NCBI GenBank assembly: GCA_029259915.1
Contig: JAJDED010000053.1
Location: 1-64,000 of the forward strand
DNA: 64,000 nt
Direction: 5' to 3'
Origin: Planctomycetota bacterium
GTDB lineage: Bacteria; Planctomycetota; Planctomycetia; Pirellulales; Lacipirellulaceae
This document shows positions 4,903 through 60,686 of this stretch, in pieces. Every line of letters starts with the position of its first letter. Position 1 is the stretch's first letter. Made by a program: the position numbers and the translations under genes. The notes beneath the pieces are model-generated. The model was not told the DNA's origin, searched no databases, and saw only the letters and a list, made by a program, of their open reading frames with translations.

Positions 4903-4972
4903 GTTTCGTTCCTAATGCTTTGTCTTACATCTATGTTTTGGTTTTGCCAAAGCACTAATTATCAAAAAGTGT

Positions 4973-5118
4973 AAACCGCCAAGGACGCCAAGATCGCCAA
5001 GGAACTGTTTTATTAATTCCTTAAGGCCTTGCCTTCAGTTGCTTTCGGTGTCGGTTCGTTTGCATAGACAATGGATTTCCCCGGTATTTCTTGGCGTCCT
5101 TGGCGCTCTTGGCGGTTT
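4973..5118. repeat. Palindromic element, cgccaagg 9-nt-word family, copy 1
   Basis: The left arm at about 4973-5004 reads accgccaaggacgccaagat then cgccaagg. The right arm at about 5088-5118 is the imperfect reverse complement (ttggcgtccttggcgctctt). The arms are periodic at 9 nt. The centre (tcggttcgtttgcatagaca, then gatttcccc) matches the centre of the element at 60526-60664, so the whole unit is one repeat family and not just similar arms. Confidence 0.85.
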
Positions 5119-5129
5119 TTTTTATTTTA

Positions 5130-5654
5130 TTATTCGTCGCGAACAAAGGTGGTGCGGATCGAACCGCCGCCCAGATTGACGAATCCGCCTGACTGCGGTT
5201 TGCCGGCGGCGTGCAGGCTTGCATTCCAGGGCAAGGCGTAAGCGTAAACCTGACCACTGCTAGCCTCGGCAATATAAATGAGACTTTGCCCCAGTTGCGA
5301 ATTGCCTCGGCCGCGCGGCAAGTCGACCAGCCCGGTAACCATCAAGTATTTGGGGTTCTTGGTTCCGCCACCGAAATCGCCTTGGATGTTGTACTCGAAA
5401 AATGCGGTAAAGGTACCCGTCTTACGGCTGATGACTGCCGCACGGAGATCGCCCGTGAGAAAGTCGAGAAAGTAAAGCGCTTCGATTCCCTCGTCGATAA
5501 ACCCGGTGGCAATGGCAAAGTTGTCGACGCCTTGGGTCGCGGTGGCATAGGCCGGGCGAGTTTCTCCCATGCCGAACCAGCCGGCTGACAACACCACTCC
5601 CACAAAAAGTCCCAACACCATCATCGCCGCTTGATTGCAAAATCGGTCGACCAT
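5130..5654 (-). CDS. Secreted or membrane-anchored protein of unknown function (174 aa)
   Basis: An N-terminal hydrophobic segment (AMMVLGLFVGVVLSAGWF, about residues 10-28) fits a signal anchor or signal peptide. The mature part (ATQGVDNFAIATGFIDEGIE, later YFLDFLTGDLRAAVISRKTG) has several beta-strand-like blocks in which residues FLTG-D-RAAV and GQVYAYALPW recall a single repeated blade-like unit. I recognise it only as the kind of short conserved secreted protein seen in Pirellulales-like genomes. It stands alone between two repeat-filled spacers. No enzymatic motif is visible. Confidence 0.6.
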   Translation of the reverse strand: MVDRFCNQAAMMVLGLFVGVVLSAGWFGMGETRPAYATATQGVDNFAIATGFIDEGIEALYFLDFLTGDLRAAVISRKTGTFTAFFEYNIQGDFGGGTKNPKYLMVTGLVDLPRGRGNSQLGQSLIYIAEASSGQVYAYALPWNASLHAAGKPQSGGFVNLGGGSIRTTFVRDE

Positions 5655-5747: not shown

Positions 5748-5861
5748 AGCAGGAGGAGGGGATAAGGGGGAATGCTGAAGGGGAAAGTGGAAGGGGGAAT
5801 GGGGAGGGCGGATTTTTTTCCGAATGATTCTCTGTTGTTCAGCAATCAGAAATCAGCAATC
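5748..5861. repeat. Purine-word tract plus atcagca 7-nt-word repeat
   Basis: From about 5748 to 5815 the plus strand is almost pure purine, with words gaggggataaggggg, gaaagtggaagggggaat. This resembles the reverse complement of the tract at 41705-41770 (cccctttccactttcgc). From 5838 to 5861 the words atcagca, atcagaa, atcagca repeat at 7 nt, as in the palindrome at 20383-20465. The tract ends next to the stop of the metallopeptidase gene. Confidence 0.55.
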
Positions 5862-5868
5862 TCACCGC

Positions 5869-9039: not shown

Positions 9040-9111
9040 TCTCACGCAGAGACACAGAGACGCAGAGTAATAGTCATAAAATTTCCTCCGCGTCTCTGCG
9101 CCTCTGCGAGA
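9040..9111. repeat. Palindrome with cgcagag/cacagag 9-nt-word arms
   Basis: Left arm about 9040-9067 (ctcacgcagagacacagaga then cgcagag); right arm about 9086-9111 (ctccgcgtctctgcgcctct then gcgaga). The loop is about 18 nt. It fills the gap between ubiX and the ubiA-like gene and could fold in the shared transcript. A half-arm of a related type lies at 22545-22572. Confidence 0.85.
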
Positions 9112-17577: not shown

Positions 17578-18533
17578 GAATTCTCCGCGTTGTGTCGAGG
17601 ATTGGATTCGCTTCGCGCGGCGATCTCACGCGTTTGTGCCACGTCTTGTTTGAGCTGCTCGACAAGTTGTTTTTCGTTATCAAAGCTGGAAGTGTCTCGC
17701 AGGCGCTCGAAAAATTCGACTTCCACCGGCAGGCCGTAGATCGCTTCGTCGTGGTCGATCAAATGGACTTCCACTTTCATCCGTGATTCGCCAAAGGTAG
17801 GGTTGGGGCCCAAATGGATTGCCGCAGGGCAACAGCGATTGCCCACGTAGCCTTGGCCGGCGTAAACGCCCGCGGCGGGAAGCAACGTGTCGATCGCTTC
17901 GAGATTCGCCGTGGGAAAACCAAGCCGACTCCCCCGCCCTGCCCCGTGCGTTACCATACCTCGAATCCGATAAGGAGCCGAGAGCATTTTCGTCGCTTCC
18001 ATCACATCGCCGTCGGCAATCAGCCGACGGATGAGCGAACTGGAAACCAATTGATCCGCCAAGTGGAACGGTTCGACCACGTCGAGCGTGATCCCCGCCT
18101 GCTGTGCCATTTGCGCTAGCTGCTCGACGTTTCCTTCGCGATTGTGCCCGAAGAAAAAGTTAGGGCCTTCGACCAGCGCGCGCGCGTCGAGCGCTTCGCG
18201 CACGATCCGATCGAAAAACTCTTGGGCCGAGAGGGCCAACAATGCTTCGTCGGTGGGATACGCAACCACCTTGTCGACGCCATGCTTGGCCAGCAGTTGC
18301 GCTTTGCGCTCGGTCCAAGTGAGCGGCGGCGGACATTGGTCCGGCCTGAGAATCCGCACCGGATGCGGGTCGAACGTAAATACAATCGCGGGTCCATCTG
18401 TCGCCCGAGCGCGCTCGAGCAACTTGTCGACAATCCGCAAATGCCCTTTGTGAACCCCATCAAAATTCCCGATCGCAACCGCACCACCGCGAGCGGCATC
18501 GGGTAGCTTTTCAAGATCGCGAAGTATTGGCAT
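17574..18533 (-). CDS. ribF: Bifunctional riboflavin kinase/FAD synthetase RibF
   Basis: RibF phosphorylates riboflavin to FMN and adenylates FMN to FAD. The N-terminal nucleotidyltransferase part has GGAVAIGNFDGVHKGHLRIV and VEGPNFFFGHNREGN; the C-terminal kinase part has TGN-like region GRGSRLGFPTANLEAIDTLL and GVYAGQGYVG. The length, 319 aa, is normal. The gene begins with ATG and couples to nrnA through a 4-bp overlap. It is preceded by a strong 26-bp palindrome. Confidence 0.94.
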   Translation of the reverse strand: MPILRDLEKLPDAARGGAVAIGNFDGVHKGHLRIVDKLLERARATDGPAIVFTFDPHPVRILRPDQCPPPLTWTERKAQLLAKHGVDKVVAYPTDEALLALSAQEFFDRIVREALDARALVEGPNFFFGHNREGNVEQLAQMAQQAGITLDVVEPFHLADQLVSSSLIRRLIADGDVMEATKMLSAPYRIRGMVTHGAGRGSRLGFPTANLEAIDTLLPAAGVYAGQGYVGNRCCPAAIHLGPNPTFGESRMKVEVHLIDHDEAIYGLPVEVEFFERLRDTSSFDNEKQLVEQLKQDVAQTREIAARSESNPRHNAENS

Positions 18534-18571
18534 GTTGGCTCTTGGGAATTTCGCTAATAGTTAGGTATTGT

Positions 18572-18650
18572 CTCTCGCAAAGGCGCTAAGGCGCAAAGCA
18601 TTTCGCAAACATATTTTTGTCATTTTTGCGCCTTAGCGCCTTTGCGAGAG
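18572..18650. repeat. Perfect 26-bp palindrome, gcgctaagg 9-nt-word family
   Basis: ctctcgcaaaggcgctaagg then cgcaaa (18572-18597) and its exact reverse complement tttgcgccttagcgcctttg then cgagag (18625-18650). The 27-nt loop is AT-rich (catttcgcaaacatatttttg). It sits in the 288-bp divergent gap between ribF and ppx, where both promoters must also lie. Confidence 0.9.
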
Positions 18651-18821
18651 TTTCTCAACTTACAAAACAAGTCCTTGGGAAGCTTATCTCTGAACATATC
18701 CAAAAGGCATGATGTCATACCTCTCCCGAATAAAGAAATCGTCTTCTTACTTGTATCGCGGTGACCACACGATTATTCTGCGGATAGACGCTGCGGTCAA
18801 CGACTCCCCCATGAATGTTGA

Positions 18822-20390
18822 ATGCCTGAACAACAAACGACTCTTGTGCCCGACCTAATTCCCCGGCTGGCGGCGATCGACATCGGCAGCAACAGCATCC
18901 GGCTGGTGGTTGCGGAATCTCAGGCCGGGGGACGTTATCGCATTTTGGACGAGGAACTCGAAACGACCCGATTGGGAGGCGCGCTCGCTTCCACCGGCAA
19001 ACTTGACGACGGGTCGATCGAAGCTTCGCTTGCGGCGTTGAGACGATTTCAAGCGATCGCCGCGGGGCTGAATATCGAAAACCTGCGCGCCATTGCCACA
19101 TGTGCCGTGCGCGAAGCAAGCAACGGAAAAGAGTTTTGCCGCAAAGTTAAGGAGCAACTCGATTTGCCCATCGAGGTGATCTCCGCCAAGAAGGAAGCGC
19201 ATTTGGCGTTTCACAGTGTGCGCCGGCGCCTCGATCTGGCAGGGAAAAACACGCTACTGGTCGACATCGGCGGCGGCAGTACCGAGATTGTGCTGGCCTC
19301 CGGCGAATTGATCGAATCGATTTACGCTACAACTTTGGGCGCCGTGCGGCTTGGCGAAAAATTCGGCGTCGGACAATCGCTCGCTGGCGACGATTACGAT
19401 CGCATGCGCAAGTGGATCGACCGCCGGCTAAAGAAGACTACAGAAAAGCCTGTCGCGCCGATTCATTTGCTCATCGGCTCGGGAGGCACCTTTACCAATC
19501 TTGCAAACATGGTGATGGCCGCCAAAGGGCAATCGCGCCTGCCCGTGGCCGGTTGTCAGGTTTCGCGCGCCGAATTGCGACACCTCGTCGATCGGCTGCG
19601 AAAGATGTCGTTGAAACAACGACGCGAAGTCGCGGGGCTCAATCCCGATCGGGCCGATATTATTGTGCCCGGCTTGGCGGTGATCGATCGGGTTATGCGG
19701 CGTTTCAAAATCAACCTATTGCAAGTCCATCCGTATGGCGTGCGCGATGGTTTGTTGTTGTCGATGATCGAACAGATGCAAGGCTCCGGCGAGGCACCTC
19801 CCGCGGACGAAACGGCACAGATCGAACGCTTTGCCACCGCCTGCGGCGTGGAGCTTGAACATTCTCGCCACGTCGCAACAATTGCAACGCAAATCTACTC
19901 CGCCATGTGCGAACACTACGAACTCAACCCCGACGATTGTCGCCTGCTCGACGCTGCCGCACGAATGCAGGACGTCGGATATCTCATCAACTACAAAGGG
20001 CATCACAAGCATTCGTACCATTTGATTTGTCATAGCGCGATGGAGGGTTTCCGCCCAGAGGAATTAGAAATTATCGCCAACGTGGCACGCTACCATCGGG
20101 GAGCAACCCCCAAGAATAAGCACGAAAACTTCTCGCGGCTCGAACCGGCCGATCAACAGCGAGTGCTTTCCATGGCGGCGGTACTGCGGTTAGCGGGAGG
20201 ACTCGACCGCAGCCACAACCGCACCATCCAATCGGTGCAGGTTGCCTGCTCGAAGAGTCAACTCGAATTATCGGTCGCTGCCGACGAGTATCCAGAAGTC
20301 GACATTTGGGCCGCCCGCAACCGTGCACAACTTTTCGAAAACGTGTTCGACACCGAAGTCAGCATCCAATGGAACGGATCAGATTTATGA
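18822..20390 (+). CDS. ppx: Exopolyphosphatase/pppGpp phosphohydrolase Ppx/GppA with HD-like C-terminus
   Basis: The ASKHA phosphatase domain starts AAIDIGSNSIRLVVAE and has VDIGGGSTEIVLASGEL and IGSGGTFTNLANMV, the nucleotide/phosphate loops of the family. The second half contains HSRHVATIATQIYSAM and DAAARMQDVGYLINYKGHHK, an HD-type hydrolase fold as in Ppx/GppA. It would degrade polyphosphate or convert pppGpp to ppGpp. At 522 aa it has the normal length. Its last codons (GAT TTA TGA) lie inside the left arm of a perfect palindrome. Confidence 0.93.
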   Translation: MPEQQTTLVPDLIPRLAAIDIGSNSIRLVVAESQAGGRYRILDEELETTRLGGALASTGKLDDGSIEASLAALRRFQAIAAGLNIENLRAIATCAVREASNGKEFCRKVKEQLDLPIEVISAKKEAHLAFHSVRRRLDLAGKNTLLVDIGGGSTEIVLASGELIESIYATTLGAVRLGEKFGVGQSLAGDDYDRMRKWIDRRLKKTTEKPVAPIHLLIGSGGTFTNLANMVMAAKGQSRLPVAGCQVSRAELRHLVDRLRKMSLKQRREVAGLNPDRADIIVPGLAVIDRVMRRFKINLLQVHPYGVRDGLLLSMIEQMQGSGEAPPADETAQIERFATACGVELEHSRHVATIATQIYSAMCEHYELNPDDCRLLDAAARMQDVGYLINYKGHHKHSYHLICHSAMEGFRPEELEIIANVARYHRGATPKNKHENFSRLEPADQQRVLSMAAVLRLAGGLDRSHNRTIQSVQVACSKSQLELSVAADEYPEVDIWAARNRAQLFENVFDTEVSIQWNGSDL

Positions 20391-20465
20391 TTGCTGATTG
20401 ATGATTTATGAATTGTTGTCGACCGAACCCCTTGGTTCATCACTCATCAATCAGCAATCATAAAT
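20383..20465. terminator. 22-bp perfect palindrome carrying both stop codons of convergent genes
   Basis: Arms 20383-20404 (atttatgattgctgattgat...) and 20444-20465 are exact reverse complements, separated by 39 nt. The left arm contains the TGA of ppx and the right arm contains the TGA of nnrD. Arms show the 7-nt word atcagca/tgattgc. The position between convergent genes suggests a two-way terminator; no long T-run follows either arm. Confidence 0.85.
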
Positions 20466-21333
20466 CCAAAAATGCTTGGGGTAAATAATCGACCACATCG
20501 CTGGCGATGAGCGACGTTTGGCCCAAGTCGTCCGTTGCCAGATCGCCCGCCAAGCCGTGGACATGCACGCCCAACCGCGCCGCGTCCCAAGAACTTAAAC
20601 TCTGTCCGACCAGCGCTGTGATAATCCCCGTGAGGCAATCGCCCGTGCCGCCGGTGGCCATGCCCGGGTTGCCCGTCGCATTGACCGCAAATCGCTCGCC
20701 GTCGGTCACGATGGTTCGGTGTCCTTTTAACACAACAATGGTGCGCCTGCTGGTGTCTTGGCGACAAAGGGCTGCCGCTTGCTCGGCACGTTTCGCCGTT
20801 TCGGCAGCGCACTTTTCCCCTGACAATCGTTGAAACTCGCCGGGATGGGGCGTAAGAATCCGCGGTGCCACGGGTGAATCGATTTGCCGAATGTCTTGCG
20901 TGAGCGCGTTGAGGCCGTCGGCATCGATGATCATCGGTTGTTCAATTCGGCAATAAAGATCGTGGACCAACCCGGTGGTGAACGGCTCGCTTCCCAATCC
21001 GGGGCCCAAGGCGATTGCCGTCATTTGGTCGGCGGCTTGCAGCAGGTCGTCCACGTCTTCGCCGCGTAGCGAATGGGCGTCGGCCGTGCCGAATGGGAGT
21101 GTCATAAACGAAGGCTCGAAGCCTGCAACGGTCGATTGAATCGAACGCGGCACGGCCACAGTCACCAACCCCGCCCCGCTGCGAAGCGCCGCCATGCCTG
21201 CCAGAGCCGGCGCCCCCGCCATCCCCCGAGAACCGCCGACAATCAACACGCGCCCATAATCGCCCTTATGGCTTTCGGCACAACGCGGTGCAAGCGACGG
21301 CAAAGGTTCATCGGAAACGTCTGCAAGCGGCAT
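20458..21333 (-). CDS. nnrD: ADP/ATP-dependent NAD(P)H-hydrate dehydratase (NnrD), stand-alone
   Basis: NnrD restores damaged NAD(P)H hydrates. The protein has the ribokinase-like signatures GRVLIVGGSRGMAGAPALAG, SGAGLVTVAVP, ALGPGLGSEPFTTG, LTPHPGEFQRLSG and NPGMATGGTGDCLTGII, the last being the anion-hole/catalytic Asp block. At 291 aa it is the dehydratase alone, without the fused NnrE epimerase found in many bacteria. Its last two residues Asp-Leu are encoded in the shared palindrome, as are those of Ppx. Confidence 0.92.
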   Translation of the reverse strand: MPLADVSDEPLPSLAPRCAESHKGDYGRVLIVGGSRGMAGAPALAGMAALRSGAGLVTVAVPRSIQSTVAGFEPSFMTLPFGTADAHSLRGEDVDDLLQAADQMTAIALGPGLGSEPFTTGLVHDLYCRIEQPMIIDADGLNALTQDIRQIDSPVAPRILTPHPGEFQRLSGEKCAAETAKRAEQAAALCRQDTSRRTIVVLKGHRTIVTDGERFAVNATGNPGMATGGTGDCLTGIITALVGQSLSSWDAARLGVHVHGLAGDLATDDLGQTSLIASDVVDYLPQAFLDL

Positions 21334-21731
21334 GGTGTTATTTTGGGATGTTATTCAGTTGAAAACATAGCGGTTAGCTTTTAGCGATTAGGTCGTGTTG
21401 ACATTCATAGGGTGGCGTTGTTGGCCGACGGCCATGTTCATCGTAGCCTAGGGCAACGCCCTAGGAACATAGGGGGAGACCATCGATTTGGCTGAAGGCC
21501 ATATTCACAAGCACGAACAATGAATATGGCCTTTGGCCAAAAGAGGTCTCTATTTTCTAAGCCCCGGGGCGTTGCTCCAGGCTACGGTAATAAAGGCCTT
21601 CGGCCAAAAAACTTGCGTTACTCTCCAGACAAGTCGTGTGTACCCTACTTGCCAGTTCAAATGTCAACACTACCTGGCTGTTACCTCTTTATGAACTCTA
21701 TTCTATCTGGCTAATCGCTAATAGCTAACAG
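21334..21731. repeat. Long nested fold-back element filling the nnrD-larB gap
   Basis: From about 21369 to 21734 successive segments pair around a centre near 21514: ggctgaaggccatattca (21490) with tgaatatggcctttggcc (21521); gagacc with ggtctc; cgtagcctagggcaacgccc (21442) with a match ending ccaggctacg (21586); ggccgacggcc with ggccttcggcc; further out gtgttgacat (21395) with atgtcaacac (21661); and outermost tagcttttagcgattag with ctaatcgctaatagcta. No gene is convincing in it. Confidence 0.8.
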
Positions 21732-22490
21732 CTAACAGCTCCCATTTCTCCGCGTCGCCACCAGGCCGGCCAACGTGCCCGCCTTGAATCCGGCGTCGAT
21801 GTTTACCACCGCCACGTTACTTGCGCAACTGTTGAGCATCGCCAACAGCGCGGTCAAGCCACCAAAGTTTGCGCCGTAACCGACACTTGTCGGCACAGCA
21901 AACACGGGGCAAGGAACATAGCCACCCACCACGCTCGGCAGCGCGCCTTCCATTCCCGCGACAACTACAATCGCGTCGGCTTCCGCGAATTCCGCCAGTC
22001 GCTCCGGCAAACGGTGCGGACCTGCCACGCCGACGTCGTGGACCATCGTCGCCCGCACGCCCATCCAATCGAGCGTCTCGCGCGCCTCTTCAGCAACTGG
22101 TAAGTCACTGGTTCCTGCGGTAATCACGGCAACGTGCCCCACCAATTCTTGCGCTTTCCCAACATCAACGCGAAGCGTCCGCGCGACTTCGTTATAGCGC
22201 GCGTCGTGCAACTGTTCGCATAAAATCTCCGCTTTCGCTTGATCAACACGCGTCGCCAACACGCGCTGGTTGCTGCGGAGGAGCTGCGAGGCAATGCTAA
22301 AAATAGTTTCCGCCGATTTGCCTTCGCCAAAAATCACTTCCGGAAACCCGCACCGCGCGGCCCGATCCAGATCGACCGTGGCAAGATCGGTTTCCGCTGC
22401 ATTGCCAGAAGCAAGGCGCACAAAATCATCGGCCGAAATCTCATCCGCCGCCAACCGGCCCGCCAACGTCAGAAGTTCGCCGCTATCCAT
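21732..22490 (-). CDS. larB: Nickel pincer cofactor biosynthesis protein LarB
   Basis: LarB carboxylates nicotinic acid adenine dinucleotide to start the nickel-pincer cofactor of lactate racemase-type enzymes. The AIR-carboxylase-like core is plain: AVITAGTSDLPVAEEA, VHDVGVAGPHRLPERL, VVVAGMEGALPSVVGGYV, AVPTSVGYGANFGGLTALLA and MLNSCASNVAVVNIDAGFKA. Its length of 252 aa is normal. larC and larE are not in the window. The gene end abuts the fold-back element. Confidence 0.93.
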   Translation of the reverse strand: MDSGELLTLAGRLAADEISADDFVRLASGNAAETDLATVDLDRAARCGFPEVIFGEGKSAETIFSIASQLLRSNQRVLATRVDQAKAEILCEQLHDARYNEVARTLRVDVGKAQELVGHVAVITAGTSDLPVAEEARETLDWMGVRATMVHDVGVAGPHRLPERLAEFAEADAIVVVAGMEGALPSVVGGYVPCPVFAVPTSVGYGANFGGLTALLAMLNSCASNVAVVNIDAGFKAGTLAGLVATRRNGSC

Positions 22491-22544
22491 CCCAGTAGTT
22501 TACCCGGCAACACCCGGGAAAAACAATCCATCTGGGAAAGGATA

Positions 22545-22572
22545 GCCACAGAGGACACAGAGAACACGGAGA
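22545..22572. repeat. Half-arm of the cacagag 9-nt-word family
   Basis: gccacagaggacacagagaa then cacggag matches the left arms of this superfamily but has no nearby right arm. It is directly followed by the 86-bp palindrome at 22576. Confidence 0.55.
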
Positions 22573-22575
22573 AAA

Positions 22576-22661
22576 GTAGGATGGGGCCGTTAGGCCCATC
22601 GTTAGCAATGATTTTGGCAAAAACAAATCGATGGCTCGCCGCTTTGTTTTGGCTATTCTAT
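22576..22661. repeat. 86-bp palindromic repeat, copy 1 (gtaggatgg family)
   Basis: gtaggatggggccgttaggc ... aatcgatggctcgccgcttt ... is closely similar, at the same length, to 61099-61184. Its right edge provides the stop codon (TAG 22658-22660) of the MtlR-like gene. Confidence 0.8.
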
Positions 22662-23230
22662 CTGCTAGCCTCAGGAGCCATTCTCATCATGTGAAAACCG
22701 CAGACATCATCAACTTGAAAAGGTTTTGCATCTAGCACATATAATTCTGCACAAAGCACTGCAAATGCGAGCGAAATGAACAGTGATTCACTTGGATCAG
22801 ATTGCGGGACGATTGGCGCTTCGTTAACGTCATCCCACACTGGGCTTTTGGATGCGAGAGATTGCATACAAATGACTCGGTCTATGTGAGGTGCAGTCGA
22901 AAGATCCATCTGCTGGGAAGCGTGTGCCGCATCATTGCGCAATTTGCGTAGAGTCTGTAAAAAACTCTCATAATCGCGATCTATGAGTCCAAGACGGTAG
23001 GCAAGAAGAATCCGTGAGGAGAATGACCCAAGCGCATGGTTGGATGAAAACAACGAATCTTGACCACCACTTTCGTGGCGCATTGTTTTCTGAAGTAATT
23101 TTTTGAGTAAATCGTCGAGACGCGAAGTGGCAATGATGATCATTAACCGGTCATCTGTCTTAAGCTGCTCAAGCCAACGAGATACTCGCTGAAAAACACC
23201 TTTCGGTATTTCTTTATCATTAATGGCCAT
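22658..23230 (-). CDS. MtlR-like protein coupled to a TIGR02574-type antitoxin
   Basis: The 190-residue protein is largely helical. The section ALGSFSSRILLAYRLGLI followed by LRKLRNDAAHA is the core of the MtlR (mannitol repressor)/DUF4145-like family. It lacks an obvious DNA-binding domain. It overlaps by 11 bp the upstream antitoxin gene, in the position that a RelE/ParE toxin normally fills. The stop codon comes from the adjoining repeat, so the last residues may be altered. Function is not known; a toxin-like or RNA-binding role is a guess from the layout. Confidence 0.7.
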   Translation of the reverse strand: MAINDKEIPKGVFQRVSRWLEQLKTDDRLMIIIATSRLDDLLKKLLQKTMRHESGGQDSLFSSNHALGSFSSRILLAYRLGLIDRDYESFLQTLRKLRNDAAHASQQMDLSTAPHIDRVICMQSLASKSPVWDDVNEAPIVPQSDPSESLFISLAFAVLCAELYVLDAKPFQVDDVCGFHMMRMAPEASR

Positions 23231-37533: not shown

Positions 37534-37664
37534 AACCACAAAGGCACGAAGACACAAAGACAATGAACTGAAGAATGAAAGAATCTCGGAATAGAAAGAA
37601 AAAAGAAATTCTTCCATTCCTCTTACTTCTTCCACTCTTTGTGTCTTCGTGCCTTAGTGGTTCA
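37534..37664. repeat. Palindrome with cacaaag/cacgaag 9-nt-word arms, copy 1
   Basis: Left arm aaccacaaaggcacgaagac then acaaaga (37534-37560); right arm tctttgtgtcttcgtgcctt then agtggtt (37637-37664). The 76-nt centre is A-rich on one side and T-rich on the other (agaaagaaaaaagaaattct), so it may also pair. Between the kinase gene start and the end of the PKD protein gene. Confidence 0.85.
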
Positions 37665-54395: not shown

Positions 54396-54750
54396 TTTTC
54401 AAATCGGAGTGATAGCGATCTTGAATTCTACTGCACAGAGGTATTGAACCACAAAGGCACGAAGACACAAAGAAATGGATGAAATAGGGGAATGGAAAGA
54501 ATTCTTCTATATCCTCCTATTCCCGAATACCTTCATCCCTCAATTTCCTTCTTAGTGTCTTCGTGCCTTTGTGGTTCAACCTTTCGCTGCCCCTCTAAGC
54601 GATTATGGTCAACGCCGGGATATAGTACCGCAATTCTAGTGCCCCTCCGCGAACCCGACAATGTACGCTTCAAGGGCATATTGTTTATCTAGCTATCGCA
54701 CCTTACTATGAAATGGTTGTTTAACGTCGCAAACAGGAAGCGAGCGATGC
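54396..54750. other. Divergent spacer with palindrome copy 2 of the cacgaag family
   Basis: The 355-bp gap separates moxR (minus) and the DUF4159 gene (plus). It contains the palindrome 54444-54579 and about 170 bp (54580-54750) that should hold the promoter of the plus-strand gene; I see no strong -35/-10 pair. Confidence 0.6.
54444..54579. repeat. Palindrome with cacaaag/cacgaag 9-nt-word arms, copy 2
   Basis: Left arm ttgaaccacaaaggcacgaa then gacacaaag (54444-54473); right arm ttagtgtcttcgtgcctttg then tggttcaa (54550-54579). The arms are near-identical to those at 37534-37664; the centres differ in sequence but both contain gaaaga/gaattctt blocks. Confidence 0.88.
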
Positions 54751-60525: not shown

Positions 60526-60664
60526 TGAACCGCCAAGAACGCCAAGAGCGCCAAGGAGTTGCTTTTATGGATTCTTATCCGACTTTGCTTTCAGTCGCAG
60601 GTCGTTTGCTTAGATAATTGATTTCCCCAGTATTTCTTGGCGTCCTTGGCGCTCTTGGCGGTTC
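60526..60664. repeat. Palindromic element, cgccaagg 9-nt-word family, copy 2
   Basis: Left arm about 60526-60559 (gtgaaccgccaagaacgcca then agagcgccaagg); right arm about 60634-60664 (ttggcgtccttggcgctctt). The centre (tgctttcagtcgcaggtcgt then ttgcttag) matches copy 1 at 4973-5118. The right edge continues tttgagtaaat (60675-60685) directly before the dgkA start. Confidence 0.88.
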
Positions 60665-60686
60665 ATTTCTTCAGTTTGAGTAAATA

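Follow-up and report, generated by a model that had tools for sequence, protein, structure and literature searches.

The window, a stretch of 64,000 nucleotides of planctomycete DNA, harbours two convergent genes whose 3' ends meet in one palindrome of about 85 bp lying between them. The genes and the parts of the palindrome are:

18822-20390, plus strand: ppx, Ppx/GppA phosphatase family, 522 amino acids; stop codon TGA at 20388-20390, inside the left arm
20382-20412, plus strand: left arm of TGA-headed heptads (TGATTGC, TGATTGA, TGATTTA and further units); perfect part 20382-20404
20410-20438, minus strand: oriented core GAACCAAGGGGTTCGGTCGACAACAATTC, of a core type found in ten further copies of the home genome and in a single copy of genome G022
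20436-20466, minus strand: right arm, the same heptads as in the left arm on the other strand; perfect part 20444-20466
20458-21333, minus strand: nnrD, ADP-dependent NAD(P)H-hydrate dehydratase domain, 291 amino acids; stop codon at 20458-20460, inside the right arm

The name ppx is backed by the Pfam families Ppx-GppA and Ppx-GppA_III, and nnrD by Pfam Carb_kinase and NCBIfam TIGR00196 (NAD(P)H-hydrate dehydratase). The conserved domain of NnrD stops at residue 285-287 of 291, and the palindrome therefore reaches only the NnrD tail.

Results

Both genes end in the arms of one palindrome

A first-pass annotation of this DNA had described exact reverse-complementary arms of 22 bp. These are present, and the perfect inverted repeat is in fact one base longer, with 23 bp as its maximal extent. 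Extended to 31 nt, the arms are 94% complementary and enclose a spacer of 23 nt. As had also been stated, a single palindrome holds the TGA stops of both genes, and both proteins end in Asp-Leu encoded by the same word, GAT TTA TGA. The palindrome possesses terminal inverted repeats, as expected of a MITE. Compared to dinucleotide shuffles, its folding energy reaches a z-score of about -6.9 on either strand. Folding prediction gives RNA hairpins of -39 and -43 kcal/mol for the two strands, and on both strands the predicted stem starts at the last codons of ppx and nnrD. Allowing up to three mismatches, the 22-mer arm is matched twice in the window (0 expected) and 31 times in the genome, as compared to no match for a reversed control pattern.

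The arms consist of heptads headed by TGA, of the form TGATTNN (TGATTTA, TGATTGC, TGATTGA). In the window copy every reading frame, entering from either side, meets a TGA within 20 nt of the arm start. The stop reaches all three frames because the heptad period of seven is not a multiple of three, and it closes genes from both sides because the arms are mirror-symmetric. With a stop available in every frame, identical Asp-Leu ends require only that ppx and nnrD enter them in the same frame. The common stop word is thus a coincidence of frame with a chance of about 1 in 3. A single TGATTNN heptad arm without partner is found elsewhere in the window (5839-5862, minus strand), 6 nt past the stop of a called gene, and a congener, G004, carries a long, nearly pure tandem array of about 16 TGATTGG heptads (C4:789798-789919).

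The junction in relatives

The convergent order of ppx and nnrD is conserved in the genus and in part of the family. Twelve relatives in which both gene ends are visible have the convergent pair and lack the palindrome. In these, the Ppx tail is free after a W and the NnrD tail after an F. The first-pass annotation would have been contradicted by relatives that lack the palindrome and keep the same terminal codons in both genes; the comparison of C-termini revealed an Asp-Leu-stop end in neither gene of any of the twelve. The two stops overlap by 4 nt in G001, the closest of the relatives, and are separated by 12 nt in both G004 and G006. With junctions as tight as these, an insertion would naturally strike both genes. 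G022 and G027 have other, unrelated sequence at the ppx-nnrD junction.

The palindrome belongs to a dispersed repeat family

A DNA search of the home genome with the palindrome gave 29 matches, which resolve into about 20 elements. Similar self-complementary copies thus stand at many unrelated non-coding sites, as is characteristic of a dispersed palindromic repeat. Eleven copies of the home genome, the window copy included, and one copy of G022, which represents another genus of the same family, have a common oriented core of type GAACCAAGGGATTCAGCCCAATACAATTC. In most other home-genome copies an outer pair of inverted arms, of type ACCACGGAGGCACGGAGGACACGGAG, surrounds the inner module, which in the window copy stands by itself. 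Lengths within the family range from 85 to 150 bp. The same outer CACGGAG arms were seen around different inner palindromes at L178, L183, L192 and L193 (G000 contigs C47, C34, C24 and C12). From their sequences the repeats look modular, as if hairpin modules had been nested or swapped.

Across the order, matches are patchy (25 of 296 genomes), and near full-length, well-conserved matches occur among these 296 only in G000 and G022. Thirteen congeners have almost no matches. An identical 22-mer arm was also detected in one MAG each of Chloroflexi and Zixibacteria. Rfam gave no match within positions 18000-23000, plasmid and phage collections contained no match to the element, and viral contigs did not contain the exact arm. 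Text searches of the literature for the arm and outer-arm sequences returned nothing relevant; judged by this limited search of open-access literature, the family is apparently new and without a name. In the copies compared, the flanks reveal no clear target-site duplication. Covariation as a sign of selected RNA structure was dropped as a line of evidence: the heptad arms align ambiguously, and of 14 predicted pairs three have two-sided changes.

Concerning placement, 19 home-genome copies were assigned to their neighbouring genes, with gene calls near the other copies being approximate ones from a codon-usage script. Eleven lie between tandem genes, seven between convergent genes and one between divergent genes. 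For most of them the nearest 3' end is at most 60 nt away, and they usually stand just past a stop. Two heptad palindromes of G022 (L158, 3515-3601; L161, 2947-3048) end 5 nt upstream of an apparent start codon, hence not every copy sits at a 3' end. Among 84 heptad arms surveyed in four genomes, four arms in three elements supply a stop codon, and a systematic stop-supplying role of the repeat was rejected on this count. Two of the four arms are those of the window copy and the remaining two belong to separate elements closing one gene each; no other copy examined in this survey closes two genes. The L175 gene closed by such an arm ends in MTAD, the L097 gene is closed in a different register, and the Chloroflexota L109 gene ends in ENL.

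About ten long palindromes with arms of short tandem repeats are present in the window, approximately one per 6 kb. Besides the one at the ppx-nnrD junction, they include:

4954-5137, 9042-9111, 18572-18650, 37534-37662, 54444-54579 and 60526-60665: further long palindromes, arms of short degenerate tandem repeats of types CGCCAAGGA, CGCAGAGACA, CGCAAAGG and CACGAAGA

Discussion

We propose that a dispersed non-coding repeat of about 85 bp inserted at the 3'-3' junction of ppx and nnrD, replaced the variable tails of both proteins and supplied both stop codons, a reading to which we give a probability of roughly 0.87. The coding symmetry of the two gene ends is a by-product of the repeat copy having landed there. 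The first-pass annotation had argued that such symmetry cannot arise by chance from two unrelated genes. Shuffled sequences and the genome-wide arm count uphold the first half of this argument; the implied relation between the two genes falls, because the arms are dispersed-repeat DNA. As far as sequence comparison can tell, the common ending is imported DNA and no sign of kinship between ppx and nnrD. The insertion would have been a single event, brought about by an enzyme presumably acting in trans. Both tails may have been replaced in this one event, or one of the genes may have run into the element later.

As one candidate reading, the repeat would be a REP moved by a Y1 transposase of the RAYT type. 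A resident enzyme of this kind would be at hand, with ten Y1_Tnp genes in the home genome, and placement near 3' ends resembles that of REPs (PMC3733652). However, the surroundings of 40 Y1_Tnp loci from five genomes, 124 kb in all, contain not a single heptad array, the GTAG and CGTC tags are absent from the window copy, examined over 87 bp, and the element measures 85-150 bp as compared to 20-40 bp for a REP. We therefore regard a RAYT-mobilised REP as unlikely; the Y1_Tnp loci examined link no mobilising enzyme to the family.

The position between convergent genes and the strong hairpin predicted on both strands would suit a purpose-built bidirectional transcription terminator common to ppx and nnrD. 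Yet the stem is AT-rich and followed by a T-run on neither strand, and no terminator-like site with a GC-rich stem and a T-run was found at the palindrome. Moreover, no more than 7 of the 19 copies have convergent neighbours, and relatives keep the gene pair without the palindrome. This makes a dedicated terminator unlikely. Local inverted duplication, in which one gene would have received its 3' end from the other, would explain the perfect 23-bp arms and the identical last codons, but can practically be dismissed, as arm and core recur at about 20 unrelated sites of the genome and neither gene ends this way in relatives.

With the repeat in place, a stable hairpin with its stem starting at the gene end would form in both mRNAs and may protect their 3' ends. 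By analogy with E. coli REPs that lie no more than 15 nt from a stop, the hairpin may also impede terminating ribosomes. As a long shot, TGA-heptad palindromes might form a widely dispersed class of mobile hairpins that has gone unrecognised. Their period of seven would have been selected because it closes a gene in any frame and from either side, so that an insertion at a gene end can be tolerated and a single copy can become the end of two genes.

This single locus illustrates how one repeat can remodel the termini of two housekeeping proteins together. Beyond that, it hints at a large group of palindromes in these genomes, apparently without a name, that are built with arms of short tandem repeats and in some cases nested.

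Comparison with known repeats

Terminating ribosomes reportedly stall at E. coli REPs whose distance from the stop codon is 15 nt or less (Liang et al. 2015, as related in PMC12306157). Like the REPs of that account, the window hairpin lies directly at a stop codon; unlike them, it contains its stops inside the stem and serves two genes, and stalling might occur here by analogy. QMITE2 of Coxiella burnetii is a palindromic mobile repeat that resides for the most part in intergenic DNA and 3' untranslated regions, and in one case it lengthens the C-terminus of enhC (PMC5896051). Both families are palindromic repeats that alter a protein C-terminus, whereas QMITE2 is unrelated in sequence, is bounded by direct repeats and affects one gene. 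The TAACTGA heptamers of marine Beggiatoaceae provide stops in all three frames (MacGregor 2015, PMC4679880), and the same frame argument holds for the window heptads. In contrast to TAACTGA repeats, which are direct, have no predicted hairpin and occur mainly upstream of genes (PMC4679880), the window heptads build the two arms of a palindrome.

A parallel in behaviour is offered by the GTAG/CGTC REPs (Di Nocera et al. 2013, PMC3733652), dispersed palindromes that for the most part sit close to 3' ends where the flanking genes are tandem or convergent. Their termini often give the flanking ORF its stop codon (PMC3733652). The window family resembles them in being dispersed and palindromic, in its placement at 3' ends and in supplying stops. 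It differs in its length of at least 85 bp, in its TGA-headed heptad arms and in having neither a GTAG/CGTC tag nor a linked RAYT. Stop-supplying repeats, be they REPs or heptamer repeats, are thus already published; the single window copy, which gives stops to two genes, is an unusually neat case.
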